Shown: in pieces, positions 13,444 to 51,135 of the stretch | Numbering within the stretch: position 1 is the first letter of the stretch | Layout: every line of letters begins with the position of its first letter | Assembly: GCA_038049695.1 (NCBI GenBank) | Contig: CP142451.1 | Location: forward strand, 45,395,001-45,459,000 | Length of the DNA: 64,000 bases | Origin: Cinnamomum chago | Taxonomy: Eukaryota > Streptophyta > Magnoliopsida > Laurales > Lauraceae | Reading direction: 5' to 3' | Program-made: the position numbers and the translations under genes | The notes under the pieces: model-generated | Database searches by the model: none | What the model was told of the DNA's origin: nothing | Seen by the model: only the letters and a program-made list of their open reading frames with translations

Positions 13444-13688
13444 TGATGGACCCGGCTTTTGTCTTTTTCCAAAGCTGCCTCCGCCCCGGGGCTGACGGGG
13501 TATGGTGGAGGGAAAAAGGAAAAGCGGGCATCAGTTTTTTTGTACGGGTATGCCAATTTCTCTTTAATACTTGGAATTTAGAAATGGTGATCCGGAGATC
13601 CACCTTCACAAGTAAAAAGGGAAATGAAACTTTTTTCTAGTTTTCCATTGCATACATATTTTAATAAAAGAGACAGTTTTGTTTGAAT

Positions 13689-13758
13689 GCCGTGAAAGGC
13701 GTTTTTGTGCCGTAGAAGGCGGTTTGGTGCCGTTGGAGGCGATTTTGCCATGAAAGGC
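13689..13758. repeat. Four GCC-N6-GGC mini-hairpins
   Basis: GCCGTGAAAGGC, GCCGTAGAAGGC, GCCGTTGGAGGC and GCCATGAAAGGC lie at 13689, 13709, 13729 and 13747. The arms stay fixed while the 6-nt loop changes. The set recurs in the other G LTR (about 34708-34777), and relatives appear in LTR H near 51475-51530. The mirror form GGC-N6-GCC dominates 22260-22935. Confidence 0.7.
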
Positions 13759-14285
13759 GATTTACAAATCTTATCAATAATGAAAGACAAGAGATGTGAT
13801 TTTTTGTCTCTTTAGAAAAAAATACAATTTACAACAGAAAAGTAAGAAAAAGGAATCTAACTTCTCATGCGATTGTGGGAGGGCTCGTTCAGATCGATGG
13901 TCGCGAGTCATGTATGGGCTCCGCCATCGTCCTTCAGATGAGAACATAGTGCTTGATTTCTTGGCTTGGCTCCAACCTCAGATTTTTAGAGGATAAGGAC
14001 CAAGATAAGGTCCTATATCCGGTAAAAAACTGAGTAGACGGGCTGAAAAGCCGCATCTAGCCATGTTGGATAGAAGGAGAGGTGGTCTTTGGGGGGGTGG
14101 CCCCCCAAGGGGCTTCAATCACCTTGTTGAACTTGTTGCAGCAGAGTTTTCTTGAAGGAGCAGGGTTGTAGAGATTTCTCCAAGGATTTTTGAATGATTT
14201 TCTGGCGATTTTTCCGGATCTGTGGCGATTTTCCCGGATCCTTCTGTGTGTGTCCCCCTTTCTTGGAATGCTTGGAGAGGACTCC

Positions 14286-14293
14286 TATTTATA
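14286..14293 (-). promoter_or_regulatory. TATA box in G 3' LTR
   Basis: Minus-strand CCTATAAATAGG, a strong TATA box. The same sequence is at 35304-35311 in the 5' LTR and 50974-50981 in LTR H. Transcription in the element sense would start roughly 30 bp beyond it. Confidence 0.65.
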
Positions 14294-15010
14294 GGCCTTT
14301 TGGTAGCCTTTAGGAGTGATTTATGAGCCTTTATGGTAATAAAGCTCATTAAGGGAGGAGTTACAAGTTTAATTGCTTTTTGTTTTGTAACTCCTGACCC
14401 TTGGATTTCATTGGCCGGAGGAGAGTCATGGGCATTTAATCGCCTTTAATCTCCATTATGTTAGGAGTTTCATGGCTTGAATGCCATGATTGCTTGGACT
14501 TGTAACTCCTGAACAGAGGCTTCTGATTGGGCCGTTCAAGATAATGGGTTAATGACCGCATTAACTTGCCATAAACGGGCCAATTGATTGCACTAAGTGG
14601 CCACCTTGGTAGCTGAAGAGTCGCGGGCCATGTTGCGTCTCTTGGAATTCCCTTTGCGATGATCATCGATGGATCCTTATGTAAATCAACATCAGATGAT
14701 CATGTAGTTTCAGACATTGGTTGATACCAGCGGGCCGGCAGCATCTGTCCAGTCGATTTCGCGATCGGGCGGGCAGAAAGTGCACTTTTTGGTTGTTCAG
14801 CTAGCGATCAACGAAGTTTTTGAAGTTCTTGGAAGGATTTCTGTGATCTTGGCGAATATCGGCGAATTTGGAGCCTCAAAAGTCTGAATCTGGAAAAATC
14901 ACAGGGACAGAACAACTCGTCTCGCGAAAACGGACGAAACGGGGGGTCCCGGGGCGAAATCGGCGCCCCGGACCTCCCAGGGTCGCCGGCCCCATGGTCT
15001 CCGGCGACCA

Positions 15011-15040
15011 TGGGCCATGGTCGCCGGCGACCATGGCCCA
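15011..15040. repeat. Perfect 30-nt palindrome in LTR
   Basis: The half-site TGGGCCATGGTCGCC is followed directly by its reverse complement. It lies in a GC-rich stretch (14940-15100) with more ATGGTCGCCGG-type words. The same palindrome is at 36029-36058 in the other LTR. Confidence 0.85.
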
Positions 15041-15331
15041 GGGTCGCAGGCCTGGCCCAGGGTCGCGGGGCTCTGCGACCCTGGGGGGAAAATTGCTTCC
15101 CGGGGCCCGTTTCTGGCCGTTTTTCGTCGTTTTTCGCTTCCGTTTTTTTTGTTTGTTTTCTATGAGATTTCTCCACATTTTTGGCTTGATTTCCCTCTGA
15201 AAAACATGATGAGAATCCTTGCAAATTGGTTTGCAAAGTTTCCGATTTTCCGGGAAATCCGAGCGCAGAACTGCTGATTTTCCGCCAGAAGCTGAAACAG
15301 GGTCAAACGATGTCGGAATGACCTGAAATTT

Positions 15332-15660
15332 GAGGTGAAGCTTCTTGAGCATTAAATAAGACCAACCATGGGCTTTCTTTTGAGTTTTGAAGCCGTTTGG
15401 GGTCATGCAAATGCTTGCCTTTGATTTCACTGCGAGGGAAATGCCGAACTTTGACTTTCGGTCAAACGATGTCCGATTGACCTGAAATTCGACGTGTGAC
15501 TCCCTCATCAGTAGTTAAGACCAACCATAGGCTTTTGTTTGAGTTTTGAAGCCATTTGGAGTCATGCAAACGCTTGCCTTTGTTTCTCCTGCGAGAGAGA
15601 TGCCGAGCTTTGACTTTCGGTCAAACGATGTCCGATTGACCTGAAATTCGACGAGGAGCG
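15332..15660 (-). repeat. 159-bp tandem repeat in G LTR
   Basis: The word CTGAAATTCGACG and its diverged form recur with spacing of exactly 159 bp (anchors at 15332, 15491, 15650). The unit equals 53 codons, so the minus-strand frame stays open across copies. LTR H carries five units (49213-50007). Confidence 0.75.
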
Positions 15661-15955
15661 TATTGGAGTCATTTTGAGATGATCCGCAAGCTCCGAATTA
15701 GGTGCCATGGTCCCAGGGTGGTCCGCCGCCGGGAGCTGCTACTTAGCTGTTGGAGAAGTGAAGCTAGGCCAAATGATATCGAAATGACCTGAAACTTCAT
15801 GTGTACCTCTCTTTTGGTTCTTTTGAGTGACCTTGCAGTTTTTGTTTGATTCTGACAAGATCTGATGCTTGAAGTGGCGCCTGCCTATTTTGGTAGGATG
15901 CGGCTCCGTGTAGCTTTTGGTGTGAAGAGGCAAAGTGACATTTTTGGTGTCAACA

Positions 15956-16689: not shown

Positions 16690-17003
16690 CACTTTGTAAA
16701 GAATATCCAAAGATATCTCCTTTGGGTGGAGAATATCTAAAAATATCCTTACTTTGAGAGATTTTCTCAAGTTTCCTTGATTTTGGGAGAGATTCTCTCA
16801 AAATATCTTTCTTTGGGAGAGAATATCTATCATTCCCTTTCTTTTTGGAGAGAATTTCTCAAGGAATCTTTGTTTTGGGAGAGAATATCCCAAGTTTCCT
16901 TTTCTTTTGGGAAGGCAAATTTACTTGGGAAGGTTGCTAATTTTTAGCCCTTACCTCCTTGCTTTTCTCTTGTTTCCTCTTTTGTTTTGCTCTCTTCTAT
17001 AAG
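16690..17003 (+). promoter_or_regulatory. Putative PMD gene promoter with TATA box
   Basis: TCTATAAGAG (TATA core 16998-17003) lies about 125 bp upstream of the first ATG at 17126. Upstream, 16690-16930 holds at least seven degenerate copies of a GGAGAGAATATCT-like word, and one AAAATATCT (16800-16808) equals the plant evening element recognised by CCA1/LHY/RVE-type MYB factors. A dedicated promoter on this strand would let the gene be expressed opposite to the element's genomic transcript. Function is inferred from motifs only. Confidence 0.45.
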
Positions 17004-17125
17004 AGCAATTGAGGTGGGATCTCTTGCTCCTATTGCTTTCTTTTTGCAAAAGTCTTCAAGAGTTGCTCTAAGATCAAGAATCCTCCTTCTTCAAGAGTCT
17101 TCAAGTTCTCCTTTCTTCTCCATCC

Positions 17126-17405
17126 ATGGCTTCAAGTGAGTTTTTTATTTCTTTTTACAAGAAATTCCATGTAAAGAAAGTTTCATCATTTTTTTCTTCC
17201 CTTTTTTTTTTTTTTGCACGTGTTCTTTTTTTTCTTTTTTTTTTTTACACGCCCTTTTCTTTTCTTTTTTTCTTTCTTCTTTTTTTTTTTTCTTTTCTCC
17301 TTTTTTTTTTTTTTTTGCTGCTGTACGGACATGTCCGTACAGCTTTGGGCCGTACGGCCATGTGGCCCATGGGCTTCGGCCTGTGGGCCAGCCCATAATT
17401 TTTTC

Positions 17406-17440
<35 letters not shown>

Positions 17441-20400
17441 GAACTTTCCTTTCTCCCCTTTTTGTATCATCATGATAATGAGGTTTCATGCATTTCAAGA
17501 TGTTTATGCATTTTTTTTTTCTTTTTTTTTTGTTTGATGCATCAAGATAGAAGGCTAGAGTTTCTATGTTAAGTCAACATGAATTTTGACTTAGACAAAG
17601 TTTGATTTTGACGAAGTTGGGTTGGAATTGGTCAAATTTTGTCAAGGCTTTCCTAGCATCTAGTGCATGATGATTTTCTTTTATGCATGATTTTGGTAAA
17701 TTGAATTGGGAGCATGATGATGATGCACACCTGGAAATCTTTTGCAAGTCTTGAGATTTGAAGCTCGCAGCAATGTTGAGCTCTTTCTTTAGTCTTGCGG
17801 GGGTTTCGAGGAGCTTTTTGCAAGTTTTGGGATTTGAAGCTCGCAGCAATGTTGAGCTCTTTTCCGATTCTTGCGGAAATTTGAGAAGACTGTCTTGATC
17901 TCGCAGCAATGTTTGAGTTCGAGTCTTCTTTGAGAATCCTTCATTGATCATGAGCTTGCAGCGATGTTGAGCTCATCTTCAGGCTTCCTTTCTTTTCGGG
18001 GTGATTCCCTTTTCTTCGGAATTGCCCCGGAGTCATGCCAAAATTTCGCTAGGATTTTTTTTAGCAAAATTCTGTCATTCTGTTGATTGATTTTTTTTTT
18101 CAATCTTTGCAGGTAGTTCCTCCAGAACGAACAAGGGTAAGAAGCCCGTTACCGATACACCTCGTCGATCTGCCAGATCTTCCAATGCTGCTGTACAGCA
18201 GGCTTGGGAGAAGGTCCAGTATGTGGAGAGAAACTTGGAAGAGTGTGACTCGCTCAACCGAGATGAGATGAGACAGCGACTGATCGGTCTCAAGGATGAG
18301 GAGTTTTACAAGATTATGGCAAGCAATCGTCCTTGGGTCATGGACGATCAGAGCGTTGTGCCCAAGCCTACCTTTTTCTTTGGTGATGCAGCTCCTGATG
18401 ACTCGTCATATCAAAGGAGATGCTTTCAGTTCTCTTACACAGCCGATGGTGAGGAGAGAACCATTTCTACCCGGTCGCCTTTTGATCGTACTATTTCGAT
18501 CATGAGTCTTTCTCCCACTTGCTCTAAGAGAGAAGATCCTCCAAGCTGGGTGAAGAGGACCACTGTGGTCAAGACCGGGGTTTTTGTTGGCGGTCCTTCT
18601 GGTTATGCAGAGAAGTCGCCTGTCCGTCTGGACATGTTGATGCCGGCCAGCGGCTACCAAGGATCTGATCATCCATCGGTTGATTTGAGACCGGTGGGCC
18701 TTGGCATTTTCAGGGGCGATGGCAGCAATTGGGTGAAGCCTTTTCGACTTCGTGGCCGTTTCAGTGTTGACTCGGGCTGGGAGTCGTGGACTGATCACAT
18801 CCTGCAGATCGGCGGTGCCATTCTGAAGGAGGCCGAGATTTTTGATGCGGTTCGCGCTTTTAGGCAAACCGTATTTTTCTCCGATGAGGCTTTTATGGCC
18901 ATGCTGGAGTCCTTCCTTCCACAAACCAACACCTTCATTGTTACGAATGGTGAGATTGGTTTTTCTTTGAAGGAGCTGAGTGCCATTACCGGGTTACCCA
19001 TCCTCGGCAAACTCTATGAGGAATTTATGCCGATTGACAGCGTCCTTGAGGAGCAGTCTGAGGAGTTCAGGCTTTTGTACTTTCAGCTCGTCGCCTTCTA
19101 CGATTTTTTGAGGGAGAAGGAGGGCTTGAAAGTCCGGTGTAGCAGTTGGAGGAGTTTCAGCTCTTTGTCTCCAAACTTTTTTGGCGACGAAGAATCTTCT
19201 GAGAGTATGACCCAGGAAGCCAAGACTAAGAATCCGGGGAAGAAGATTTCTGCCATGCGAGAGAATTTGAAGAACTTTCTCACAAGTACAGACGCCGTTT
19301 GCTCCGACATTGCGCTGCGGAGAGACGTTGCTGCGTACCTCACTTATTGGCTGGGTGAGGCTGTTTTTGCTGGAGGAGACGGAACACACATCAGGCCGCA
19401 TTGTATATTTCCGGCTTGTCAGATGGCGTTCGGAGAGCAGTTGGCTTTGGTGCCTGCTCTTTACTCCTATTTGTGCACCGAACTGCAGGCTGCTGCTTTT
19501 CTGGTTCGGCTTGGGCTTCCTATGAATAGGGTATTTTCAGCCCATATTTTTTATTCGTGGTATGTGTACCACTGTCCCGGCTTCCACCGTTTGGGCGCTG
19601 CTCAGGATGATGACCCTTTTATGATTCGGTTGGCTAGGGGAAAAGCCGTTTCGGATTCACTTTTGTCTGCCCGCTTGAGAATCCGACGATTCAGGGATGT
19701 CGAGATTGGGCAATCTTCAGTAAAGCTTTCTCCAGATTTGCGGAAGAAGGCTTTTGATTTTGGTGTCTCCCGAGATTCTACCAGGGCGGGATCGGGAAGA
19801 CACTATTCTTTGACCAACGCAGAGAAGAGGTGGCTTTTAAACATACGTGTTGGCACGATGGTGTACCGCAGACATCTTTTTGTTGATATCCAACCGTATG
19901 TCCCTTCGCGTTTTGCGTTGCAGTTAGGCTTCTCTCAAGGCGTTGTTGGAGCGCCTTCGAGCATGGTGAAGCGTTTTGGAGGTTTGCAGGACGGGAGAAA
20001 TGCATGGGCTTTCTATAGTGCGGAGGACACTACTGCCATGATTTCCTATCCTGAGTTGCCCATTTTCCGGACTGCTGGCTTCACGAAGTGGTTCGTGGAG
20101 AGCTTTGCTGTGTACCGAGGGCTTTCCAAGAAGGAGCTGAATGTCAAGCAATCTCCTGGGAAGGGTCTTGGTAGATCAGATGGCGTCCGTCGAGGGGAAG
20201 TTTTGTTCTTCCTTTCTGGAGAGAAGCATAGGATAGGCTTTCTCGAGGAACAGGATGTCATTAGATCCGGAGCCGCACAAGAGATACCTGCTGAGGTCTT
20301 GAGACAGCTCGAGGAGGAGGAAGCCGAGATCGACACTTGGATGCAAGCAGAGCGAATGAAGGCTTCCATGGGGTCCACTGGTAGGAGCGGGTCGTCCAGT

Positions 20401-22024
20401 GAGGAGCCAAGTGGAAGTCCTGACTTTGACAGTGAGGCAGGTACTTCGAGTAGACCGGCTCGTAGAAAAAAGAGGAGGAGAGGACAGCGTCGCACAGAGA
20501 GACGCCACGAAGACTTTCCTGATCTGGAAGTCCCTCCTACCATTGCTGAGGAGGTATCAGGAGATGCTGATGAGCCTCCAGAGAAGAGGAGTCGTGAAGA
20601 AGAGTCCGCTGATGTTGGTATGATTTTCCTTCTTCTCTATTTTCGCTTCTTTCCTTTTATGAGGGATTTTTTTTGATCTGTTGTTTTCTTTCTTTTGCAG
20701 AAGATGAAAACTTGGTGATGCCCGAGGTTCCTGCCGATGAGGCGGTGATGGATCCAGTTGCGGCATCTGAAGAAAAGTTGAGGGACTCTGGGGAGGACCC
20801 AGAATCTCCACCTGGTATGAGGATGATGATTTTTTTTTATTTTTATTTTTATTTTTTTTATTTTTTGAATTTGCTGACACATATTTTTGTTTTCTTGTCA
20901 GCTGACTTGCCAGAGGGTTCCGACTTCGAGCCATCTATGGATATGGCTTTCGACGATGCTTCGGATGAGCAAATGGAGATAGAAAGTACTCCGCCCATCA
21001 TGGAAGAAGGTATTTCATAGTGATAATCTTGACATTGATTTTTTTTTGACAAGATCATATTCATACCTTTTTGTGTTTGGCAGATTTTGAAGTGACAGAA
21101 GAGAGTCCATCGCTTCCTTCAGAGCCAGAGCCAGGGATGCCAGAAGTTGACCCAGTAATTGGGACTTCTCCAGCCAATTCTGACGCGGCAGAGGCAAGAC
21201 CTCATGTTGAGATTCCTTCTCCAGCGGCCCCGATTGGAAAGTGTTCTATTGTTACTCTTCCGATGGGACATGACTTGGGCAGCCAATCGACAGAGAAGGG
21301 TGAGTCTTCATCTGGCCCATCTCTTCAGTATGCGAAGAAGGTGGTGATGCGGGTTTTGAGTTCTTGGATTGAGACCCTCCTTTCTGGACACTTGGATGTT
21401 GCACGTAGCAAGATTCCGCATGTGAAAGAGATTCTCAAAGATGCTGAGGAAGATATTGGTCTGGATGTTACGGACGCCCGGGCGATCGTTGATAAGATCA
21501 TTGCATTAGGCGACGGATGGTTTGAGACCATCAGCTATCCTGATGACCAGTTCTTCCAAGAAATGTTCCTGAACCCTGCTGAGAAGGCTCAATCGGATTT
21601 GAAAGAGACTACACAGGGCAGGAAGCAGCTGGTTCGGGAGAGGAACCGAGCGGAGTTAGACATCATCAGGCTGCAACATGACCTTAGCATCCTTGATGGA
21701 GAGGTTGAGGAGGCAAGGAAGCATCTCGAACACCGAAAGGCCCAAGTCGCCAGTACGTGGTCCGCCATAACAGAGGCTCGTGACAGGGAGAGTGCTTTGA
21801 TTCGCCAAGTTGCAGAGGCCGATCAGATTCTCAATAGGAAGGCTAAAGAGAATGAACGATGGCAGACTGCACGGGATAGTCTTCCTGGTGTAGCAGAAGG
21901 GATAGAGCCTTCTCCAGCTACTCATGGCAGATTCTTGAAGAAGCGTGCCTTGGAGACTCTAACGGATGAAGCCAAGAGTTTGCTTGAGGAACTGAAAGCT
22001 TGGCTGGAGGGCATTTTTGGCTGA
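17126..22024 (+). CDS. Plant mobile domain (PMD) protein, five exons
   Basis: A captured host-type gene running opposite to gag-pol. Predicted exons: 17126-17135, 18113-20617, 20701-20814, 20902-21009, 21084-22024; together 3678 bp, 1225 residues plus TGA. All four introns are GT-AG and phase 1, and the frame stays open across every joint. Exon 1 supplies the ATG; exon 2 has no upstream in-frame ATG of its own, which supports the short first exon. Residues ~270-300 read TNTFIVTNGEIGFSLKEL then GLPILG, and ~410-425 YLTYWLGEAVF, both diagnostic of the aminotransferase-like plant mobile domain. A basic stretch (RRKKRRRGQRRTERR, ~790) looks like a nuclear signal. Exons 3-4 are acidic linkers, and exon 5 ends in a likely coiled coil (~1100-1195). 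PMD genes antisense in Tat-type elements are known; the role in the element is not. Confidence 0.82.
17136..18112 (+). other. Intron 1 with palindromes and poly-T tracts
   Basis: A 977-bp intron (donor GTGAGT, acceptor TTTGCAG). It contains long T runs on both sides of a GC-rich island, and a T-run/A-run pair near 17408-17441. In the island, 17320-17343 is a perfect 24-nt palindrome (half-site GCTGTACGGACA), followed by GGCCGTACGGCC. At 17757-17970 there are about four diverged copies of a GCTCGCAGCAATGTTGAGC word (first two spaced 76 bp), each an AGCTC...GAGCT inverted repeat. Confidence 0.65.
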
Positions 22025-22259
22025 GACCCCTCTTTCTCTCTTTTTATATACCACATGTATTTTTTTTTTTGGTATACATTTTTGTAGTGCTTGTGAACAC
22101 TTTTCTTTTCTTCTTCTTTTTTTTTTGGTACCACATGTATTTTTTTTGGTACTTTTTTTTTTGTTTTCCCTACGCTCACTTAAATATTGTGATTAAAGTG
22201 ATTGCTAAATGGGATGTGATCAAAAGTTTGTCATTTTGTGAGAAATCTTTTGACAAATG
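22025..22259. other. 3' flank of PMD gene, T-rich
   Basis: Non-coding. It holds two copies of a CCACATGTATTTTTTTTGGTA-like segment (22050 and 22130) between T-rich tracts. This is the likely transcript end of the PMD gene; no sharp polyadenylation signal could be chosen. Confidence 0.4.
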
Positions 22260-22935
22260 ATTGTTTTGGCATGGGAGCCAGTTTTTGAGACATGTTTTGG
22301 CATGGGAGCCAGTTTTTGAGACATGTTTTGGCATGGGAGCCAGATTTTGTTCACGGCATGAAAGCCAAATTTCGGGTGGCATCTATAGCCGGATTTGGAT
22401 GGCATCTATAGCCGGTTTGTTTTGAAAACCAGTTTGTTTTGTTGGCATGAAAGCCGGGTTTCTGTTTTGGTTGGCGTAAAAGCCAGGTTTTTTTTTTTTG
22501 ATGGCATGAAAGCCGAATTTTGAGGTGGCATGAAAGCCAAATTTGGGTTTATGGCATGAGAGCCAAAATTTTTGAGATGGCATGAAAGCCAAGATTTGGT
22601 TTGTGGCATGAGAGCCGGTTTTGTTTTTGGTGTAAGAACCAGATTTTGTTTTTGGCATGAAAGCCGAAATTTCTTTTTTTTTTTTTTTTGGCATGGAAGC
22701 CAGATTTTTTGTTTTTGGCATGAAAGCCAGATTTTTTGGCATGAAAGCCAGATTTTTTGTTTTTGGCATGAAAGCCAGATTTTTTTTTTTGAAAACCGAG
22801 TTTTGTTTTGTTGGCATGGAAGCCGAATTTTGATTTTTGGCATGAAAGCCGGATTTTTGATTTTTTGGCGTGAAAGCCGGATTTTTGGCATGGAAGCCGG
22901 GTTTTTTGGCGTGAAAGCCAGGTTTTTGGTTTTCA
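22260..22935. repeat. GGC-N6-GCC minisatellite (over 20 copies)
   Basis: The core TGGC-ATGAAA-GCCA recurs more than 20 times, separated by T-rich spacers of variable length. Loops vary (ATGGGA, ATGAAA, GTAAAA, ATCTATA), and at about 22629 the arms change together to TGGT...ACCA. On the minus strand the repeat gives long spurious frames rich in FMPK and FHAK words, with no gene support. Confidence 0.85.
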
Positions 22936-22940
22936 AAAAT

Positions 22941-23343
22941 GCAAGTATCGACTAAAAGTCGCCTCCCTGCTGAATGGTATTGCAAGTATCGATGGAATGT
23001 CGCTTCCTTGCTCATTCGGTTGCGAGTATCGATGGAATGTCGCCTCCTCGCGGATTTGGGTGCAAGTATCGACTAAGCGTCGCTTCCCTGCTTTTGTCTT
23101 CAAAAATTTTGTTTTGTGGGTATCGATGGAATGTCGCTTCCCCACGATTTTTGAAGTTTAAGGTTTTTTCGAACCTTTGTTTTGTTCTTTTTTTTGTTTG
23201 TTTTAAAATTTGGGTTGTGGATATCAACTGGAACGTTGCGTCTCCACGATTTTTGAAATTTTGGGGTTTTGGAAGTATCGAATGGGGTTCGCATCCTTCC
23301 GGTTTTGGGTTTTGCAAGTATCGACTGAACGTCGCTTCCTTGC
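22941..23343. repeat. Array of eight covarying 30-nt hairpins
   Basis: Eight units of 30-31 nt start at 22941, 22982, 23022, 23062, 23116, 23217, 23271 and 23314. Each has a 5-nt outer arm, TAT, a 4-nt inner arm, a 5-6-nt loop, the complementary inner arm, a CNTC-type spacer (CTTC, CCTC, CGTC or CATC) and the complementary outer arm. Outer pairs: GCAAG/CTTGC, GCGAG/CTCGC, GTGGG/CCCAC, GTGGA/TCCAC, GGAAG/CTTCC. Inner pairs: CGAC/GTCG, CGAT/GTCG, CAAC/GTTG, CGAA/TTCG. Units 1 and 4 have one outer mismatch. Paired changes keep the fold, so structure rather than sequence seems to be maintained. Confidence 0.85.
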
Positions 23344-23722
23344 GGTTTTTGAAAAACCATTTTTTTTGTTTAAAGACACGAGGGTCGTAAATTTTGACTC
23401 AAAACCATTTTGGTGGTAAAAGTCGAGGTGGACTAGGGCTGAAATCCCTAGGTCCTGATTTTGTTTCAAACCACGAATTTTGGTTTCAAGGATCGAAAAT
23501 TTTGGTCAAGTTTGGGAAGAAGCTCCTAAACTTGGATTTTTGGATTTGCTTTTTTTTTTTTTTTAACAATGAAACGATGAAAGAAACATTGTTTTGAGGG
23601 GTTTTTTTTTTAGAAATTTCAACAAGAGGATGAAAATTCCAAAAGGAGTGGGTTTGACGAGCAGATACCTAGGAATAGGCTTTGGCCGTGCAGGCGTCGC
23701 TCTGACCCGATGGAAGAAGCCT
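23344..23722. other. Further single hairpins before pol end
   Basis: The spacer to the integrase end continues the pattern with unrelated inverted repeats: GGACTAGGG...CCCTAGGTCC (about 23432-23456, one bulge), AAACC...GGTTT (about 23467-23485) and CAAGTTT...AAACTTG (about 23508-23535). No gene is seen. Confidence 0.55.
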
Positions 23723-24790
23723 TCAAGGGTAGTACCGCTTCAAGAACTTCCCATTGATGGGCAGCATACATCTGTCACCCTCCATGTTTAGAAGAGCGTA
23801 TGCGCCGTTGGAGAAGACTTTGTCGATGACGAAAGGTCCCTCCCATTTTGGTTCAAATTTGCCTTTGGATTTGTTGGCAAAAACCATTGGTCTTTTTACT
23901 GTAAGAACCAAGTCTCCCTTTTTGTAGGCGCGTTGCCTGACCTTCTTGTCAAAAGATCCTGCCATGCGTGCTTGGTAGAGTTCAATGCTTTGTAGAGCTT
24001 CGAGCCGTCTCTCATCGAGGTTATCCAGCTCTTGGAGTCTCAATTTGACATTGCTTTCTTGCGTCATGTCATTTTGTAGAGATACCCTTAAGGAAGGAAT
24101 TTGAACCTCCAAAGGGACAACAGCTTCGCATCCATAGACCAAGGAGAATGGTGTGCTATGGGTTGGTCCTCGAACTGTGGTTCGATAGGCCCACAAAGCT
24201 TCAGGCAGTTTGTCGCCCCATTCTCTTTTGTGACTAGAGACCATTTTCTTGAGGATTTTGCAGAGCGTCTTGTTGAAGGCCTCTGCTAGTCCATTCGCTG
24301 CCGGATTGTACGGAGTTGAAGGACAACTTTGGATTTTGTATTTGTCGCAGAACCTGTAGAATCGGTGATCGCGGAACTGTGGTCCGTTATCATGGACGAA
24401 TCTTTTAGGTATGCCGAAGCGACAAATGATGTTGGTGCGCAAGAAGTGAAGGACTGATGACGTCTTCATTTCACTAAGCGCGAATGCTTCTGACCACTTG
24501 GAGAAATAATCCGTAGCGGCGAAGATGAAGCGATGACCTTTGCTCGATGGAGGGGAGATAGGACCTATGATGTCCATACCCCAGGCTTCAAAAGGCCATG
24601 AGATTGCTGTAGGATGTAGCCATTCCGGAGGCATGTGGACATAATCTCCATGAACTTGGCATTGTTGGCAGCACTTAGCAAATTGCATTGCATCAGCCAC
24701 CATGGTAGGCCAATAATAACCTAACCTTTTTATCTGATCGTAGAGCTTAGGCCCAGCCTGATGGCTCCACAAAGACCAGCATGTACTTCT
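23723..24790 (-). CDS. Element G integrase (frame separated from pol)
   Basis: Joins element cDNA to host DNA. The 349-residue frame has the zinc-finger cysteines (CCQQC), the catalytic triad in MDIIGP (near 24571), HDNGPQF (near 24390) and LAEAFN (near 24281), and a C-terminal GPF module (KWEGPFVI) before KFLKRYYP. No chromodomain follows, as expected outside the chromoviruses. The first zinc-finger histidine (VHAGLCG) lies in the upstream polyprotein frame, so a single-base change near 24766 splits the domain; a one-nucleotide loss would explain it. Either a real inactivating mutation or a sequencing error fits. Confidence 0.85.
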   Translation of the reverse strand, partial: RSTCWSLWSHQAGPKLYDQIKRLGYYWPTMVADAMQFAKCCQQCQVHGDYVHMPPEWLHPTAISWPFEAWGMDIIGPISPPSSKGHRFIFAATDYFSKWSEAFALSEMKTSSVLHFLRTNIICRFGIPKRFVHDNGPQFRDHRFYRFCDKYKIQSCPSTPYNPAANGLAEAFNKTLCKILKKMVSSHKREWGDKLPEALWAYRTTVRGPTHSTPFSLVYGCEAVVPLEVQIPSLRVSLQNDMTQESNVKLRLQELDNLDERRLEALQSIELYQARMAGSFDKKVRQRAYKKGDLVLTVKRPMVFANKSKGKFEPKWEGPFVIDKVFSNGAYALLNMEGDRCMLPINGKFLKRYYP

Positions 24791-27700
24791 TTGAGTGTTC
24801 CCTCAGCCTCTTGTTGTGACAAGCAGCGTAGAAGTACTCCATTGTAGGATTTTCTATACAGCATTTTTGAAGGAATATCCAAATGAAAGTTTGGGGCTCG
24901 TCTTTGGATGCTTACCCGTTCTTTTGGATCTTCAGGTAGGATTCCGAACATTATGTAATCAATGAACGGATCCCTCCAGTCGCTGATCAGAGGTTTAAGG
25001 ACGGAGATCCGACTTCCAACCACTTGATGGCATTCAGCAACTGCTTGATGTGTGTTGAGAGGAGGGAGAATCCTTTTTTGACACACTGTAATTTGCATGT
25101 TTTCCCCTTCTTGGATTGCCATAGACGCAGCAAGTCCAGCCAGGGCATCTGCACGAATGTTTCCACCTCTGAGGATGTGGGTGATATGACAGATGTCGAA
25201 CTTTTGTCGAAGCGATTGTGCTTTGTTGTAGTAAGGCAACAGATCGGGCTTCCTGACTTCAAATTTCTGATTCATCTGGTTGACGATCAGTTGAGAGTCT
25301 CCAAAAGCTTCCAGCGTAGTGATGCCGGATTCAAGGGCGAGTTCCAATCCTATGATTAGGGCTTGGTACTCAGCTGCATTGTTTGAACATGGTTCCAGTA
25401 GCGAGAATGCGTGTGGAATCATGTATTTGTCGGGATTAACAAAGAGAATGCCAATTCCCGATATTTGATTTCCCTTTTCATTTGTCCTGGTTGCGCCATC
25501 GAAGTACATGTGCCAGGAAGCATTTGATAAGGAAGTCTCCACACTGTAGACCGGTTCGTCTGGGAGGTCGTCCCTGAGTGGAGAATCTTTAGGCAATGGA
25601 TGCTCGGCGAGGAAATCCGCTAGAGCTTGGCCTTTGATTGCTTTTTGTGGTACATACCTAATGTCAAATTGTGACAGGAGGATGGACCATTTTGCCAGTC
25701 GGGCATTGAGAGAACCTGCTTTTGTGACAAGGACCTTTAGGAGGTTGATCCTCGAAATCAGGTAAACTGTGTTGGATAGCAGATAGTGACGCAGTTTTTG
25801 TACGGCGAACATCACTGCCAAGCATTCTTTTTCGACTGGAGAGTAGCGATGCTCTGCACCTACCAACATGCGGCTAAGGTAATATAGAGCAGCTTCTTTT
25901 CCCTGGTCATTCTTTTGTGCGAGTAGAGCGCCTAAAGAACAGTCAAGGGCTCTTGTGTACAAGAGGAATGGTTTTCCAGTTGTGGGGGCAGCCAACACTG
26001 GAGGTTTAGTCAGGTATGACTTGATGTCCTGGAACGCGGCTTCACATTCAGCATCCCAGACAAAATCGACACCTTTCTTCATTAACCGAGAGAATGGACG
26101 GCACTTTCCTGATAGGTTGGAGATGAACCGCCGAATGTATGCCAATCTTCCTTGGAGCCCTTTTAATTGTCTTAGGGTTCTTGGAGATGGCATTTCTAGG
26201 ATAGCCTTGACTTTGGTGGGGTCAAGCTCTATGCCAGCTTTCCGTACTATGAATCCGAGAAACTTACCCGATGAAACACCGAAGAAGCATTTGAGGGGAT
26301 TCATTCGTAGTTTGTGTTTGCGAAGTCGGAGGAAGACTTCTCGAAGATCTTTGAGATGGTCTTCTTTTCTTTTGCTTTTGACGGCGAGATCATCGACATA
26401 ACATTCGACCGTCTTATGCTGCATATCTTGGAATATCTTCATCATAGCCCTCTGATATGTAGCGCCGGCATTCTTCAGACCGAATGGCATGACAGTGTAG
26501 CAATACACGCCAAACGGGGTCCGAAATGCTGTGTGTTTTCCATCTTCAGGATGCATCTTTATCTGATTGTAGCCAGAGAAGCCATCCATTAATGTCATTC
26601 GCTCGAACCCACAGGTATTGGCGATCATCACCTCCGGTATAGGGAGCGGGAATTCATCTTTTGGGCATGCATTGTTCAGGTCTCTGTAATCAATGCAGAC
26701 CCTGATTTGCCCATTTTTCTTTGTCACGGGGACGATGTTGGCCAACCATTCAGGATGCTGTTCCTCACGGATGAAGCCAACGCTTTTGAGTTTTTGAACT
26801 TCTTGTTCAATTTTGTCCATCACGTCAGGACGGAACCTTCTTTGGCCTTGTTTGACAGGCTTGATATCTTTTTGAAGATTGAGTTTATGGATTGCTATTT
26901 TGGGGTCTAAGCCAGGCATCTCAGCGTAAGACCATGCAAAACAATCAACGAACTCATGAAGAAACGCGATATACTCGGGTAACTCATCATCCTTTATATT
27001 CTTGCTTATGAATACAGGACGTGAGTTATCAGGTTTTCCCAAGTCTATCTTTTGAACAGAATCTTCTGTTGGAAGATTTGAAGGTGGTTCCTCCACAATA
27101 TTTTCGGAGGCTTCCAACCCAACAAAGCCTTCTGGAGTTCCAAAGGTATCTACAGACCACGGCTCTGCTTTTGTCAATGGGTCTTCTTGATTGGTACTTT
27201 TCTCAAGATTTGCTATGAGATGGTCCCAATCACCTGTTGAAACTAGGTCGAAGTAGGGTACTTCCTTTGGAGACAGTGGTTCTTCTGGGTCAGAGAACCG
27301 TGTGTCTGTATTATCGGACAATTCCTCTTCATCATCAAAGAAATCGTACCAATTGGATGAACTTCCTGGATCCTTGACGACCAACTCTTCAAAGAGATAT
27401 CCAGGGAGATCGATGTCTTCATTAATATGAGATGTTGAGGCTTGGTTGGCAAGATGATTTTGCAGCCTTTGTGTCAACTGTCTCAAGGGGGCGTCAGGAT
27501 CATACCCCAGCCCATATGAAAACTTTTCTATGTGGCGGTGGGGTTTCCAACCTTCCAGTTGACTTTTGGTCAGGGTTGGTTCCAATGGCGTGATAATACC
27601 ACGGCCATCTCCCAAACCGATTGGGTTCTGAGCGTCGTAGCCCATTTTCTTCATGATAGCTTGCGCCATTGGACTATACAGGGATAGTTGAGGCATACCT

Positions 27701-30700
27701 TCATTTTGGAAAGGTTCAAGCGAAGAATTTGATGAAGAAACTCCCGATTTATGGAAGAAGATTGGCTTTTCTTCTGCTGATGTTGCTGGAACAACGAAGG
27801 AAGCAGATGCCGGATCTTCTATGTCAACGGTTGTCTCCATCGGAGTGAGAGCGGGCTGAACTTGTTGATCATCAGCTTGGCTTGATGATGTATCGTCTTC
27901 TGGCTCTGAGTCCGAATCCGTGTCTTGCAAGATAGACACGAAGGAGACAGCAAACTTACCCCCAGCCCTCTGTTTTGTCTTCTTTGCTTTGGTGGTGATC
28001 ACCAGAGGCTTTGAAGACTTGAGGGAGACCATGAAGGGAGATTGATTATTCTCTTCGGTTTTGATAGAGGGTTTATTTTCTTCCGGTGATTGCTGAGGAG
28101 CCTTGCCTTTGTCTTTCTGGAGATTTTCGGCAAAGGATGCTGTTTCTTCCTCCCTTTCTTCTTTTTCATCTTTGTACATCTGAGCATCTGCGAAATAGAC
28201 TTCTTTGCCTTTGAAGGGCTTTTTGTCTGCAAACACTCGATGTATCAAGCCGTCATTGCCAACGAACTTGATGCACTGATGTAAAGTCGAAGGGACAACA
28301 CCATTCTCGTGTATCCAGGGGCGTCCGAGAAGGATGTTGTAGCATGAAGGGGTCTTTATCGCATAGACCGTGACCTCGGAGATAAGATCACCGATTTGCA
28401 ACTTGAACCTGATTTTGCCGATCGGCCTTTGAGCGCTGCCATCATATCCAAAGATGGACACAGACGTGTGGCTCAGCTTGCTAGGCGGAATGCCCAGTTC
28501 TTCGAGTGCCGAAGTGGAGATGAGGTTGAGTGCAGAACCTGGATCGATCTGGATTTTGCGTACTGGCACCTCTTTGATGTACCCGGTGAAGTACAGGGGT
28601 CGGTTGTGCTTTGTCTCGCCTAGCAGGAGGTCTTCCTTGGTGAAGGCGATGGTTGCACTTGCTGCTTTTTGAACCGAGAGGCATTCGATGCAGGATCCTT
28701 CAGTTTTCTTCTTTTCTCCTTTTGAGGGAGTTTTTGATTTTTTGACCCTATGGTCCATTTCAATTTGTAGGACTTGTGGGGCATGTTTGTCGACATCCGC
28801 ATCCAGCATTTGTAGTTCTGAAATGAGACTATCACGAGTCTGTGGTGACATTCGTAACAAGTCTAGGATGTGCAGACGTGCAGGTATGTGTTTGAAGTGC
28901 TGAATCAAGTCGTACTTGAAAGCCTCCTTGGGGCCTGCATTTTCATTATTCTTGCCACTAGGGGCGTTTACAACTTGTTTTCCCAAAGGATTTACATAAG
29001 AAGCAGAAGGTTGGTTGTAGTTTTTGTGGTAATCCCGGCCAGAACGGGTACCTCTACCAACTTCAAGAGCTTCTGGAGAAGGGTCTTTGTTTAGAAGATC
29101 ACCCTCGAGATCGAGGGGTTGTTCCTTCTCATTTGCTGAAGATTTCTCTGTGTCAGCATTGCCATCTTCAGTAATTGTGTTGCATGGAGCATTTTCCGGG
29201 AACAAGTCCTGAACAGCATCCAGCAACTTTCCTTCTTTGTCGAATATTTTGTTGGTCCAGACATCACCGATGAGATCGGGCATTTGGGACCAATTGACCG
29301 GATTTTCTCCGAAGAAGATTTCACCGGCTGGAATTTCTTCAAGGTGATCGGTCGGAAGAGGTTTGAGTTCCGATGTCACTGTTCCAGGAGACGAAGCCTG
29401 AGAAGGTGAGGAATTATCATCCTGAGTTATTGCATTGCAAGTAACTTTGACGGAAGATGCCTCCAAGATGAACTGTTGGGAATCAGATTCGTCCTCAGAT
29501 GTAAGAGGATCGTCGATCCAACAGCTTTCTTCATTTTCCGGGGTTACCGGAGGAGATTCCTGTAGATTTTCAGGAACTTCCGGTGCTGGGTTGTGACGAA
29601 GCTGATTGATGCGACCTTGTTCTTGCTCTATAGCAAGGTGCTGCAAGATCCTTGCGTATTCATCGAGATTAGGCACGGGAGCCAAATCTTCTTCTTCGTC
29701 TGCTCCTTGTGGTTCCACTAGAGTATTTTCTTGGACAGCCTCTTGGTCTTCTTCATCATCAGACCAGGATCCTTGCGGCTGTAATGGGTTATACCAGATT
29801 ACTGGCATAAGATGAGATTCAGGGATCCATTCCTCGTCGGAGAGATATTCTCCTGTTTCGAGGGATTCTTCCCACTCATCGATGTCACCGGCGGTGTCAC
29901 TGGACTCATATCCATCCATGGAGAATCCGACCACTGAGTTGCAAGAGTATGATGCCCCCTGCGTAGTTTCATCTTTGAGATGTGGTGGCATGAAATCACC
30001 AAGAGTGAATTTTCTTACCGCCTTTGAAGCCTTAGGAGAGGACTCTTCTGTTGCCCCCAATGAAGCGGTAGAGGAGGTTTCTGCCTTTTCAACGACTTCT
30101 TGCTTTTTCGGAGCTTTCTCCTGCTGTTTGAGCTTGCGGAGTTGTCTCCTGGCTTGCCTTCGCTGTTGAGCGGTTGGCTTTGTTTTGACGACCTCCCAAT
30201 TTTCATCTTCTAGGAGATCGGGGTGTACCCATATGGGCTGTCCGTCTGATGTTGGATATGGAACCAACTCTTGGGACGTTTGGGTCATCTTTATCACCTT
30301 GAAGGAAGTAGTGATCTTCTCTTTTGGTGATTTTTGTTTTTGTCCACACGACACCATGTTGACGGAGGCAGACCCATAGTTCTTGTCGAAGGTAATGACT
30401 CCGTTTTTCCACATCTCATTTATCTTCTCTCTCACAACAAAACATTGATTGAGAGGATGCGAGACCATCTGATGGTATGGGCAGTACCGAGGATCGTTGG
30501 TTTTACCAACATCTCCTGGTCTTTTGGGGTCAGGCAATGTAAGTTTGCCATTTGCTAGGAGTGCCCCAAAGATTTCTTCAACGTCTTCATCAAATGGGTA
30601 TTTCTTTTCTACCCGTTCTCTGAAGGCATCAGAGAGTTCAGGCTTTTTACCTGTAGCTTTGTTCCCAGCTTTCTTTGGCTGCTGAGGAGCTGACTTGGTT

Positions 30701-31542
30701 TGCACATTGAGAACCTCCTTTTTCTTTGGTTTTGAGGTTGCAATGGCAGTCGGCTCTTTCTTTGATGACTTCTGACTGTTGAGGTCTTTGATCACCGTTT
30801 CAGCTTCCATAGATGCTTCCAGGAGTTCTCCCAGGTTCTTTGATTTGTTGCCGATGATCATGGAGCGGATTCTTGCTCTCATGTTGTTTCGGCAGATGTC
30901 GACCAGTGATGCTTGTGGCAGTACATCGGAGCATTTGTATGCCATTGCCTTCCACTTGTGAATAAAGTCATATGTTGACTCATTCTCTCCCTGTTTTAGG
31001 CTGCAGAGCTGAGCCATAGTAACAGGATGATCCTCACCTTTGAAGTGGGTTAGGAAGCGTGTCTCCATCATGGCCCAATTTTGAATGGAGTCCTCCGGCA
31101 GAGTGGAGTACCAATCAAAGGCCGTACCTTTTAGGGTACTTGCAAAGAGGCGGATTTTGAGGGCATCTTGATCTGCAATAGCTCCCGTCAGGATCTTGAA
31201 ATGGATGACGTGTTGTCTGGCCGAACCCTTCCCCGTATATGTTTGGAGAGTAGGTTGCTTGAATTTTGTAGGGAACGGGACCGAGTCCATCCACAAGGGA
31301 TATGGTGGCTTGATCCCATGCTCTTTTAGTGTATCCTCTTCTTTTGCTTTGGCGAGGATATCGTCAACGTCCTTCTTGGTAAGGGCGCGTGATTCACTGT
31401 TTTCCGCATTTTCCTCGTCGCCTTGATGGCTCGGAGGAGCTTCATTATTTTGTGGACGCTGAAGATTGAGAATTAGGTTCTCTATTAGAGTCTCTATCCT
31501 CTGCTGCCCTTGCTCCAGCTGCTGGATGCGTGCGGTTACGTA
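24730..31542 (-). CDS. Element G gag-protease-RT-RNaseH polyprotein
   Basis: One continuous frame. The first in-frame ATG is at about 31290, but the frame is already open from 31542, overlapping the ORF1 stop by 7 nt. Domains from the start: gag core (FKQPTLQTYTG, AFDWYSTLP; 31300-30760), CPYHQMVSHPLNQC zinc-finger-like motif (~30460), long acidic linker, protease with catalytic IDPGSALNLI (~28545), G-patch (MKKMGYDAQNPIGLG, ~27640), RT (~26850-26380) with CYVDDLAV at 26389-26400, first RNase H (~25960-25650), second RNase H (YFDGAT, AEYQAL, GDSQL, ADAL; 25510-25110). The second RNase H is typical of Tat elements. The frame ends at 24730 after a shift in the integrase zinc finger. Protease and RT keep their catalytic residues. 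Confidence 0.9.
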   Translation of the reverse strand, partial: YVTARIQQLEQGQQRIETLIENLILNLQRPQNNEAPPSHQGDEENAENSESRALTKKDVDDILAKAKEEDTLKEHGIKPPYPLWMDSVPFPTKFKQPTLQTYTGKGSARQHVIHFKILTGAIADQDALKIRLFASTLKGTAFDWYSTLPEDSIQNWAMMETRFLTHFKGEDHPVTMAQLCSLKQGENESTYDFIHKWKAMAYKCSDVLPQASLVDICRNNMRARIRSMIIGNKSKNLGELLEASMEAETVIKDLNSQKSSKKEPTAIATSKPKKKEVLNVQTKSAPQQPKKAGNKATGKKPELSDAFRERVEKKYPFDEDVEEIFGALLANGKLTLPDPKRPGDVGKTNDPRYCPYHQMVSHPLNQCFVVREKINEMWKNGVITFDKNYGSASVNMVSCGQKQKSPKEKITTSFKVIKMTQTSQELVPYPTSDGQPIWVHPDLLEDENWEVVKTKPTAQQRRQARRQLRKLKQQEKAPKKQEVVEKAETSSTASLGATEESSPKASKAVRKFTLGDFMPPHLKDETTQGASYSCNSVVGFSMDGYESSDTAGDIDEWEESLETGEYLSDEEWIPESHLMPVIWYNPLQPQGSWSDDEEDQEAVQENTLVEPQGADEEEDLAPVPNLDEYARILQHLAIEQEQGRINQLRHNPAPEVPENLQESPPVTPENEESCWIDDPLTSEDESDSQQFILEASSVKVTCNAITQDDNSSPSQASSPGTVTSELKPLPTDHLEEIPAGEIFFGENPVNWSQMPDLIGDVWTNKIFDKEGKLLDAVQDLFPENAPCNTITEDGNADTEKSSANEKEQPLDLEGDLLNKDPSPEALEVGRGTRSGRDYHKNYNQPSASYVNPLGKQVVNAPSGKNNENAGPKEAFKYDLIQHFKHIPARLHILDLLRMSPQTRDSLISELQMLDADVDKHAPQVLQIEMDHRVKKSKTPSKGEKKKTEGSCIECLSVQKAASATIAFTKEDLLLGETKHNRPLYFTGYIKEVPVRKIQIDPGSALNLISTSALEELGIPPSKLSHTSVSIFGYDGSAQRPIGKIRFKLQIGDLISEVTVYAIKTPSCYNILLGRPWIHENGVVPSTLHQCIKFVGNDGLIHRVFADKKPFKGKEVYFADAQMYKDEKEEREEETASFAENLQKDKGKAPQQSPEENKPSIKTEENNQSPFMVSLKSSKPLVITTKAKKTKQRAGGKFAVSFVSILQDTDSDSEPEDDTSSSQADDQQVQPALTPMETTVDIEDPASASFVVPATSAEEKPIFFHKSGVSSSNSSLEPFQNEGMPQLSLYSPMAQAIMKKMGYDAQNPIGLGDGRGIITPLEPTLTKSQLEGWKPHRHIEKFSYGLGYDPDAPLRQLTQRLQNHLANQASTSHINEDIDLPGYLFEELVVKDPGSSSNWYDFFDDEEELSDNTDTRFSDPEEPLSPKEVPYFDLVSTGDWDHLIANLEKSTNQEDPLTKAEPWSVDTFGTPEGFVGLEASENIVEEPPSNLPTEDSVQKIDLGKPDNSRPVFISKNIKDDELPEYIAFLHEFVDCFAWSYAEMPGLDPKIAIHKLNLQKDIKPVKQGQRRFRPDVMDKIEQEVQKLKSVGFIREEQHPEWLANIVPVTKKNGQIRVCIDYRDLNNACPKDEFPLPIPEVMIANTCGFERMTLMDGFSGYNQIKMHPEDGKHTAFRTPFGVYCYTVMPFGLKNAGATYQRAMMKIFQDMQHKTVECYVDDLAVKSKRKEDHLKDLREVFLRLRKHKLRMNPLKCFFGVSSGKFLGFIVRKAGIELDPTKVKAILEMPSPRTLRQLKGLQGRLAYIRRFISNLSGKCRPFSRLMKKGVDFVWDAECEAAFQDIKSYLTKPPVLAAPTTGKPFLLYTRALDCSLGALLAQKNDQGKEAALYYLSRMLVGAEHRYSPVEKECLAVMFAVQKLRHYLLSNTVYLISRINLLKVLVTKAGSLNARLAKWSILLSQFDIRYVPQKAIKGQALADFLAEHPLPKDSPLRDDLPDEPVYSVETSLSNASWHMYFDGATRTNEKGNQISGIGILFVNPDKYMIPHAFSLLEPCSNNAAEYQALIIGLELALESGITTLEAFGDSQLIVNQMNQKFEVRKPDLLPYYNKAQSLRQKFDICHITHILRGGNIRADALAGLAASMAIQEGENMQITVCQKRILPPLNTHQAVAECHQVVGSRISVLKPLISDWRDPFIDYIMFGILPEDPKERVSIQRRAPNFHLDIPSKMLYRKSYNGVLLRCLSQQEAEGTLKEVHAGLCGAIRLGLSSTIR

Positions 31543-49056: not shown

Positions 49057-49212
49057 GAAATGACTCCAAAATTTGAACCAAAATGAAACGATGAAATGAC
49101 TCCAAAGGAAAATTTGAACCAAATCCAAACGGACCTATGGCAGAGCACCCGGGGACGATGGCATCCAATTCGGAGCTTCTCGATCATCTCAAAATGACTC
49201 CAATAGACTCCT

Positions 49213-50007
49213 CGTCGAATTTCAGGTCAATCGGACATCGTTTGACCAGAAGTCAAATCTCGACATCTCCCTTGCAGTGAAATCAAAGGCAAGCGTTTGC
49301 ATGACTCCAAATGGTTTCAAAACTCAAACGAAAGCCTATGGTTGGTCTTATCTACTGATGAGGGAGTCACCCGTCGAATTTCAGGTCAATCGGACATCGT
49401 TTGACCAAAAGTCAAAGCTCGGCATTTCCCTCGCGGTGAAATCAAAGGCAAGCGTTTGCATGACTCCAAATGGATTCAAAACTCAAACGAAAACCTATGG
49501 TTGGTATTATCTACTGATGAGGGAGTCACCCGTCGAATTTCAGGTCAATCAGACATCGTTTGACCAAAAGTCAAAGCTCGACATTTCCCTCGCGGTGAAA
49601 TCAAAGGCAAGCGTTTGCATGACGCCAAATGGCTTCAAAACTCAAACGAAAGCCTATGGTTGGTCTTATCTACTGATGAGGGAGTCACCCGTCGAATTTC
49701 AGGTCAATCGGCCATCATTTGACCAAAAGTCAAAGCTCGGCATTTCCCTCGCGGTGAAATCAAAGGCAAGCGTTTGCATGACTCCAAATGGCTTCAAAAC
49801 TCAAACAAAAGCCTGTGGTTGGTCTTATCTACTGATGAGGGAGTCACCCGTCGAATTTCAGGTCAATCGGACATCGTTTGACCAAAAGTCAAAGCTCGGC
49901 ATTTCCCTCGCGGTGAAATCAAAGGCAAGCGTTTGCATGACCCCAAACGGCTTCAAAACTCAAACGAAAGCCCATGGTTGGTCTTATTTAATGCTCAAGA
50001 AGCTTCA
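49213..50007 (+). repeat. Five 159-bp tandem units in LTR H
   Basis: The anchor CGTCGAATTTCAGGTCAATC recurs at 49213, 49372, 49531, 49690 and 49849, always 159 bp apart. Because 159 is 3 x 53, a 296-codon frame (49277-50167) stays open with a 53-residue repeat (SPVEFQVNRTSFDQKSK and KASVCMTPNGFKTQTKA). Confidence 0.88.
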
Positions 50008-50260
50008 CCTCAAATTTCAGGTCATTCCGACATCGTTTGATCCTGTTTCAGCTTCTGGCGGAAAATCAGCAGTTTTGCGTTCGGCTTTTCCCGGAAAATC
50101 AGAAACTTTGCAAACCAATTTGCAAGGATTCTCATCAGGTTTTTCAGAGGGAAATCAAGCCAAATAATGTGGAGAAATGTCAGAGAAAACAAGCAAAAAA
50201 AAACGGAAGCGAAAAACGATGAGAAACGGCCAAAAAGGGGCCCCGGGAAGGGATTTTCCC

Positions 50261-50290
50261 CCCAGGGTCGCAGACCCCTGCGACCCTGGG
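50261..50290. repeat. Inverted repeat in GC-rich part of LTR H
   Basis: Arms of 13 nt (CCCAGGGTCGCAG and its complement) around a 4-nt loop ACCC. It corresponds in position to the 30-nt palindrome in element G's LTR but with a different centre. Confidence 0.75.
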
Positions 50291-51111
50291 AGGTCCGGGG
50301 CGCCGATTTCGTCCCGGGACCCCCCGTTTCGTCCGTTTTCGTGAGACGAGTTGTTCTGTCCCTGTGATTTTTCCAGATTCAAGCTTTTGAGGCTCCAAAT
50401 TCACTGATATTCATCAAGATCACAGGACTCCTTTCCAGAACTTCAAAAACTTCATTGATTGCCAGTCGAACAACCAAAAAAGTGCACTTTCTGCCCACCC
50501 GATCGTGAAATCAACTGGACAGATGCTGCCGGCCCGCTAGTATCAACCAATGTCTGAAACTACATGATCATCTGATGTTGATTTACATAAGGATCCATCG
50601 ATGATCATCACAAAGGGGATTCCAAAAGATGCAACATGGCCCGCGACTCTTCAGCTACTAAGGCGGCCACTTAATGCTATCAATTGGCCCGTTTATGGCA
50701 AGTTAATGCAGTCATTAACCCATTATCTTGGACGGCCCAATCAGAAGCCTCTGTTCAGGAGTTACAAGTCCAAGCAATCATGGCATTCAAGCCATGAAAC
50801 TCCTAACATAATGGAGATTAAAGGCGATTAAATGCCCATGACTCTCCTCCGGCCAATGAAATCCAAGGGGCAGGAGTTACAAAGCAAGAGACAATTAAAC
50901 TTGTAACTCCTCCCTTAATGAGCTTTATTACCATAAAGGCTCATAAATCACTCCTAAAGGCTACCTAAAGGCCTATAAATAGGAGTCCCCTCCAAGCATT
51001 CTGGGGGATCGAAATCATCAGCAATTCCTGCTCTAGAGATCCAGAAGCTCAGAGAGAGAGAAACCTCTGTCGGAATTCCGCAGCAGCCTCCACTACAAGG
51101 TGACAAAAGTC

Positions 51112-51135
51112 CCTTGGGGGGCACTCCCCCCAAGG
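51112..51135. repeat. G-run/C-run hairpin in LTR H
   Basis: CCTTGGGGGG, loop CACT, CCCCCCAAGG: a perfect 10-bp stem about 135 bp downstream of the TATA box. G's LTRs keep an equivalent (near 14090-14112 and 35109-35131) with a different loop. Confidence 0.75.

Follow-up and report, generated by a model that had tools for sequence, protein, structure and literature searches.

The 64,000 nt stretch of DNA analysed here (the window) contains, beyond the 3′-end of the pol gene of a large retrotransposon, a tandem array of short units whose arms change in letters from unit to unit while remaining complementary. This raises the question of whether the array is a structure that selection maintains in the element's RNA or a by-product of the way in which such repeats are copied. 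A sequence-only reading had described eight units of 30–31 nt at 22941–23343, and all eight were found there (Table 1).

The array is hosted by an Ogre-like LTR retrotransposon of 23.5 kb (13444–36974), which has two 2.5 kb LTRs and a 5 bp TSD flanking both ends, and whose pol-sense strand is the − strand. Ogre/Tat elements rank among the largest plant retrotransposons, and the family found here is young and high-copy in a source genome of 1.06 Gb. In the gag-pol ORF the protease match was slightly below the Pfam cut-off; the second RNase H-like domain (aRH; RVT_3, residues 1933–2054) followed RT_RNaseH (residues 1774–1877), and the integrase was encoded by the next ORF. Ogre and Retand are described as having an aRH between RNase H and integrase, and 57% of Ogre elements as having a plant mobile domain (PMD) (PMC6317226). 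The same source gives the Ogre layout as two polyprotein ORFs with an intron-like region between them, and a TSD of 4 or 5 bp for most lineages, hence the TSD is not discriminating. The aRH, a PMD ORF, the very large size of the element and its LTRs and the 5 bp TSD were all present, and the predicted domain features fit an Ogre-like Tat element. The two-ORF layout was absent, as gag and RT share a single open frame (24730–31296), so the element is called Ogre-like rather than filed as a proven Ogre. TRP28 (PF04195), by which Retand would be recognised, was not found in the two + strand ORFs scanned (E ≤ 0.01).

Table 1. Features of the retrotransposon and its hairpin arrays, by position in the window.
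Feature	Position	Strand	Observations
3′ LTR	13444–15955	−	99.4% identical to 5′ LTR; TSD GGGAG outside
Antisense ORF with plant mobile domain (PMD)	18223–20676	+	PF10536, E 2.1e-16, above cut-off
Antisense ORF nearest array	21071–22024	+	End faces array
24 short GGC-N6/7-GCC hairpins	22262–22930	−	Adjoins unit array
Unit 1	22941–22970	−	Sense GCAGG-GAGG-CGAC-TTTTA-GTCG-ATA-CTTGC; folds alone; unit-model match
Unit 2	22982–23011	−	Outer GCAAG/CTTGC; folds alone
Unit 3	23022–23051	−	Outer GCGAG/CTCGC; folds alone; unit-model match
Unit 4	23062–23091	−	Sense outer GCAGG/CTTGC, one G.U; folds alone
Unit 5	23116–23145	−	Outer GTGGG/CCCAC; folds alone; unit-model match
Unit 6 (31 nt)	23217–23247	−	Outer GTGGA/TCCAC, inner CAAC/GTTG; folds alone; unit-model match
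Unit 7	23271–23300	−	Outer GGAAG/CTTCC, inner CGAA/TTCG; folds alone; unit-model match
Unit 8	23314–23343	−	Outer GCAAG/CTTGC; folds alone; unit-model match
Integrase ORF (3′-end of pol)	23723–24772	−	End faces array
gag-pol ORF	24730–31296	−	gag, RT, RNase H, second RNase H-like domain
5′ LTR	34463–36974	−	99.4% identical to 3′ LTR; TSD GGGAG outside

The units had been placed between the convergent ends of pol and the PMD gene. The flanking ORFs do converge, and the 1.7 kb between their ends (22024 on the + strand and 23723 on the − strand) contains two hairpin arrays, although the antisense ORF nearest the array is not the PMD ORF but the one ending at 22024, whose sole domain match (HAUS5) was below the cut-off. 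In the second array, which adjoins the units, 23 hairpins were GGC..GCC and one was GGT..ACC, a paired change, and the loops were variable. Its folding z was −6.81 on the sense strand and −3.09 on the antisense strand, and a count over seven near-identical copies gave 147 GGC..GCC hairpins for 150 occurrences of GGC. A − strand ORF at 22383–23015 was considered as a gene and set aside; a second frame across the same repeats is also open, so this ORF probably reflects stop-poor repeats.

Other repeats and signals were observed in the window. As judged by eye, the antisense PMD gene seemingly has a TATA-like box of its own, CTATAAGAG, within 16990–18112, where a GT..AG intron would separate a short first exon, ATGGCTTCAA, from the main PMD ORF. 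Upstream of the antisense gene, at 16721–16901, there are tandem quasi-palindromic units (GAGAGAATATCTC-like) with a period of about 31 bp. Each LTR contains approximately four diverged copies of a 20 bp repeat (13688–13763 and 34707–34782), and one copy has an exact GCCGTGAAAGGC, a hairpin in which the arms of the GGC array are exchanged. At 49139–51673 there is an LTR-like stretch, 76–95% identical by segment, from a related element that runs in the other direction; it contains a 159 bp tandem array expanded to about five copies.

Seven of the eight units are 30 nt long and one is 31 nt. On the pol-sense strand they share the layout G-N4 / GANG / CGA.. / loop / ..TCG / ATA / N4-C, with CAA/TTG as the inner arms of one unit. 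They are irregularly spaced, with spacers of 10–71 nt and TRF tandem-repeat periods of 40–43. The sense spacers (162 nt) consist of 57% A, 22% C, 15% T and 5% G; being A-rich and G-poor, they would leave the hairpins as islands within a largely unstructured sense RNA. On the + strand, Watson-Crick pairs filled 38/40 cells of the outer arms and 29/32 cells of the inner arms, the exceptions being two A.C (outer pair 4 of units 1 and 4) and three T.G (inner pair 4). The list of arms in the sequence-only reading omitted GCAAG/CCTGC of units 1 and 4, in which the + strand A.C mismatch is a G.U wobble on the pol-sense strand. It also gave CGAT/GTCG as matched, which is T.G on the + strand and a C.A non-pair on the sense strand. 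A search with a unit model had six of the eight window units among the matches listed, units 2 and 4 not being among them, and one weak extra match (17 bits) at 29638–29661. No Rfam 15 family matched 13400–37000 at its gathering score when searched to E ≤ 1; two sub-gathering matches (E 0.77 and 0.83) each lay outside the array.

The arms were then compared across units. Shuffling whole 3′ arms among the eight units, a control that ignores relatedness, gave P = 0.00035 for the outer and P = 0.019 for the inner arms. In an alignment of ten units, namely the eight of the window and two from locus L048, the outer helix was 100% paired (G.U included), two-sided change was seen at 4/5 outer pairs and 6/9 pairs overall, and the covariation score was 0.447, compared to 0.207 for shuffles. 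Relatedness was retained in a phylogeny-preserving null, in which substitutions were simulated on the unit tree with the changes per column kept. The score was 0.462 for the 18 unit types common to at least two arrays (null mean 0.105) and 0.508 for the eight units of the window (null mean 0.132); in neither set did any of 2000 simulations match the score, the number of two-sided pairs or the paired fraction (P = 0.0005). With all 136 distinct units, decayed ones included, 500 simulations gave P = 0.002 for the score and P = 0.004 for the paired fraction.

The sequence-only reading had proposed a check with R-scape. An R-scape-like test over all column pairs found no single pair with E < 0.05, the best being about 0.3: outer pair 3 ranked first in all units (E 0.29) and second in the 18 shared types (E 0.39), where the non-pair columns 19–20 outranked every pair (E 0.057). 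R-scape would therefore probably not be passed pair by pair on one family. The matched-pair changes that had been claimed thus hold beyond phylogeny for the structure as a whole, without significance for any individual pair; what can be said is that covariation exceeds relatedness at the whole-structure level, the independent events being too few to prove single pairs. By computation, the hairpin structure of the units is well supported. Two of the changes, G-C to A-U at inner pair 2 and C-G to U-A at outer pair 2, could be paired decay at CpG sites, which cannot account for GGAAG/CTTCC or for the A-U to G-C changes. A swap of outer pair 1 to C..G with the rest of the core kept had no match genome-wide.

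The linkers between the two stems were also followed through the family and proved nearly constant, as had been reported. Among 239 units of 28 arrays, taken only where they were within nine mismatches of ten known unit strings and with the array cut at some loci, ATA was intact in 235 and GA-N-G in 216 (N = A in 98, G in 66, T in 27 and C in 25); the ten strings are themselves paired, so paired percentages over these 239 units lean upward. Inner pair 4 was a C.A non-pair in sense in 82/239 units and is therefore not required. Substitution was compared in the 18 arrays outside the near-identical group, with sites in poorly aligned stretches dropped. At A/T sites the rates were, for the linkers, ATA 1.0% and GANG without its N 0.7%; for the stems, inner 3.7% and outer, where changes compensate, 11.3%; and elsewhere, apical loop 5.3%, spacers 7.3% and array flank 4.3%. 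At non-CpG G/C sites it was 5.6% in GANG, 4.3% in the inner and 6.7% in the outer stem, 12.4% in the loop, 21.9% in the spacers and 11.1% in the flank. The free N changed in 18/86 A/T cells and 0/33 G/C cells of these 18 arrays, and in 13.9% over all bases (uncorrected rates) in an alignment of 25 of the 27 further arrays, L045 and L056 being without an anchor and L057 partial. Among inherited non-Watson-Crick outer pairs, sense G.U occurred in six unit types and A.C in one, whereas the singleton mismatches (mostly decay) counted at pairs 1, 2, 3 and 5 comprised 33 G.U and 34 A.C; the six G.U types are related, so the sense-strand wobble bias is a hint. A nearly fixed asymmetric loop with one free base, flanked by covarying stems, is the pattern that a recognised RNA site would show. 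The loop may resemble a UAA/GAN-like or loop-E-like 3D motif.

The serious rival to selection on a fold is a neutral minisatellite that template switching, during DNA or RT synthesis, keeps palindromic, so that its units fold without function; we regard this as unlikely. Template switching can make a multi-base compensatory change in one step (PMC8794818), and a copy tract limited to one 5 nt arm is possible. From GCAAG/CTTGC to GTGGG/CCCAC three neighbouring pairs change together, and the number of units varies, 6–13 having been counted per array in the 28 arrays (some loci being cut). The 3′ repeats of Ogre have also been proposed to arise from abnormal strand transfer between co-packaged copies (PMC7004042). 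Copying of this kind leaves unexplained why an unpaired loop stays nearly fixed, with a free N inside it, between covarying stems, and why the sense spacers are A-rich. Outer pair 4, moreover, occurs as A-U, G.U and G-C in the ten units, as expected of stepwise change, and six of the seven inherited non-Watson-Crick types are wobbles in sense, although these types are not independent.

Folding of the two strands bears both on selection in the sense RNA and on a second alternative. Each of the eight units formed the two-stem hairpin alone on the − strand, with an inner stem of 3 bp in three units and 5 bp in one, compared to 4/8 on the + strand (counted from fold brackets); the structure originally drawn on the + strand is thus better defined in sense. 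The folding z of the array was −6.05 in sense and −0.41 in antisense (60 shuffles), and a repeat run gave −5.61 in sense. In eight further arrays, a chosen subset of the 28 in which some are old, z was lower in sense (−2.4 to −4.5) than in antisense (+0.4 to −2.8) in 8/8, so that folding was stronger in sense in all nine arrays folded. This sense-strand excess is not confined to the units, as the flanks share it: z in sense was −5.12 at 22025–22255, where there is no array, and −3.79 at 23350–23720. Two coding stretches gave −1.84 and −2.14, and locus L095, which lacks units, gave −1.69.

A 3′-end or termination element, in which + strand hairpins followed by T-rich DNA would end the antisense gene or keep converging polymerases apart, is improbable. 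The + strand spacers are T-rich and the array does lie between the convergent ORF ends at 22024 and 23723, but the + strand of the array folded no better than its shuffles. AATAAA was absent from both strands of 21901–23800, and a search of this interval for four signal-like words found only one AATGAA (+ strand, 23568). Terminators of the intrinsic hairpin-T type are known from bacteria. The two-way terminator or collision buffer suggested by the sequence-only reading fares no better, as the folding excess is mainly pol-sense and genomic RNA has to extend through the array as far as the 3′ LTR; a terminator here would truncate that RNA and is thus unlikely.

Genome-wide searches, which covered one plant genome, found 9,633 matches to the core pattern compared to eight for a reversed control. 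Both sides of outer pair 2 differed from C-G in 1,959 units compared to none in the control; these units are copies rather than independent events, and among roughly 100 such matches listed (all on C1, the contig in which the window lies) four were by eye not Watson-Crick at that pair. From the pattern counts we estimate a family of about 1,000 or more copies, throughout which the fixed layout that had been claimed is kept. The proposed search of other elements with the model gave nine matches in an older relative (locus L096) and none within 1.8 kb in L095, a different Tat/Ogre-like family as told apart by its pol-end motif alone. The array therefore looks family-specific, in line with the literature on such repeats, and it has the character of a minisatellite: short tandem repeats specific to a family, variable in number and lying between pol and the 3′ LTR. 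A PMD-based search for distant families, over 30 loci and six further stretches, yielded no unit-model match, which is a weak negative since the 30 loci extend about 1.5 kb past the domain, short of the expected array position. None of these 36 loci had a tblastn match (E ≤ 1e-5) to this gag-pol or integrase, and they look like other transposon types. Near the PMD genes of L090, L092 and L093 there are tandem palindromic motifs (CCGAAC..GTTCGG; GGGGATATCCCC; TCGGC..GCCGA), which are probably subterminal repeats of DNA transposons.

It is quite improbable that the units serve in the DNA itself as palindromic targets of a binding protein, for which the PMD protein of the element would be one candidate. 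Their arms are palindromic, and several other PMD loci in this genome have tandem palindromic motifs, but those look like fixed-sequence subterminal repeats, and none of the 36 loci, mostly short as they are, matched the unit model. A sequence-specific DNA site conserves its letters; in the array it is the pairing that is conserved, while the arm letters vary. Least probable of all is chance, namely that the units are alike as tandem descendants of a single palindrome, with unconstrained pairing: all units are related, the per-pair tests were not significant and the number of two-sided pairs was borderline over the 136 distinct units (P = 0.054), but this reading is largely refuted by the collapse of slid pairings (≤0.131 compared to 0.447) and by the failure of the relatedness-keeping nulls to reproduce the pairing in the 18-type and eight-unit sets (0/2000).

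We hold with even confidence that the array is a multi-site RNA–protein docking structure in the element's genomic RNA, and the packaging structure considered by the sequence-only reading comes close to this. The array would be a cis-acting structure in the element's own sense RNA, each unit having two short stems split by the nearly fixed asymmetric loop 5′ GANG / 3′ AUA, and the A-rich, G-poor single-stranded spacers would hold the hairpins apart. The internal loop would be the recognition site and the arms its scaffold, providing about eight equivalent putative docking sites for an RNA-binding protein, which may be the element's Gag or a host export factor. The bound protein might mark the unspliced genomic RNA for packaging or export; for retroelements, exporting genomic RNA that still contains introns takes special means (PMC10309623). 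Units would be gained and lost through tandem duplication of the kind described for Ogre 3′ regions, while selection keeps each unit foldable. More tentatively, the array could represent an undescribed class of cis-RNA, a multivalent hairpin array with a conserved 4×3 internal loop and candidate docking sites for Gag or an export factor.

If the docking reading is true, part of what is called a hypervariable 3′ UTR minisatellite is a selected RNA machine and not replication debris, and the poorly understood "spacer repeats" of the element may be a working RNA structure. A selected hairpin would have a directly testable function (RNA binding, export or packaging), and its covariance model could be applied to other plant genomes.

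Among known systems, retroviral constitutive transport elements and packaging signals bind NXF1 or Gag and drive export or packaging. The array may work like these, with no sequence relation claimed, as a fold with internal loops located 3′ of pol in a sense RNA that has to leave the nucleus unspliced, but there a single long hairpin is used whereas here there are many small repeated ones. RNA hairpins maintained by template switching (PMC8794818) share multi-pair compensatory change in short stems, but pure copying does not predict the nearly fixed unpaired loop or the wobbles of the array. Retand likewise has tandem arrays and antisense genes, those encoding TRP28, between pol and the 3′ LTR (PMC11963269), whereas the antisense ORF here matches PMD and has no PF04195 match; according to that paper, neither how tandem repeats of this kind arose nor what they do is known. 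In soybean GmOgre (Gmr9) five interleaved minisatellites lie between pol and the 3′ LTR, and their functions are stated as not known (PMC3305785), and some satellites derive from Ogre 3′ UTRs (PMC7004042). The main texts of PMC3305785, PMC7004042 and PMC11963269 never use the word "hairpin", and the hairpin form was not found described in the titles and abstract openings searched of the retrotransposon/Ogre literature, subscription papers being outside this scope. The sequence-only reading knew of no described element of this form, and for the hairpin these searches agree, but the position and repeat nature of the array are well described for Ogre/Tat elements. Their hypervariable 3′ tandem-repeat region (Macas 2009, as cited in PMC7004042) likewise lies 3′ of pol and has several short repeat families in variable number and high copy; what differs is that each unit here is an RNA hairpin of two stems, its arms compensated and its internal loop nearly fixed.
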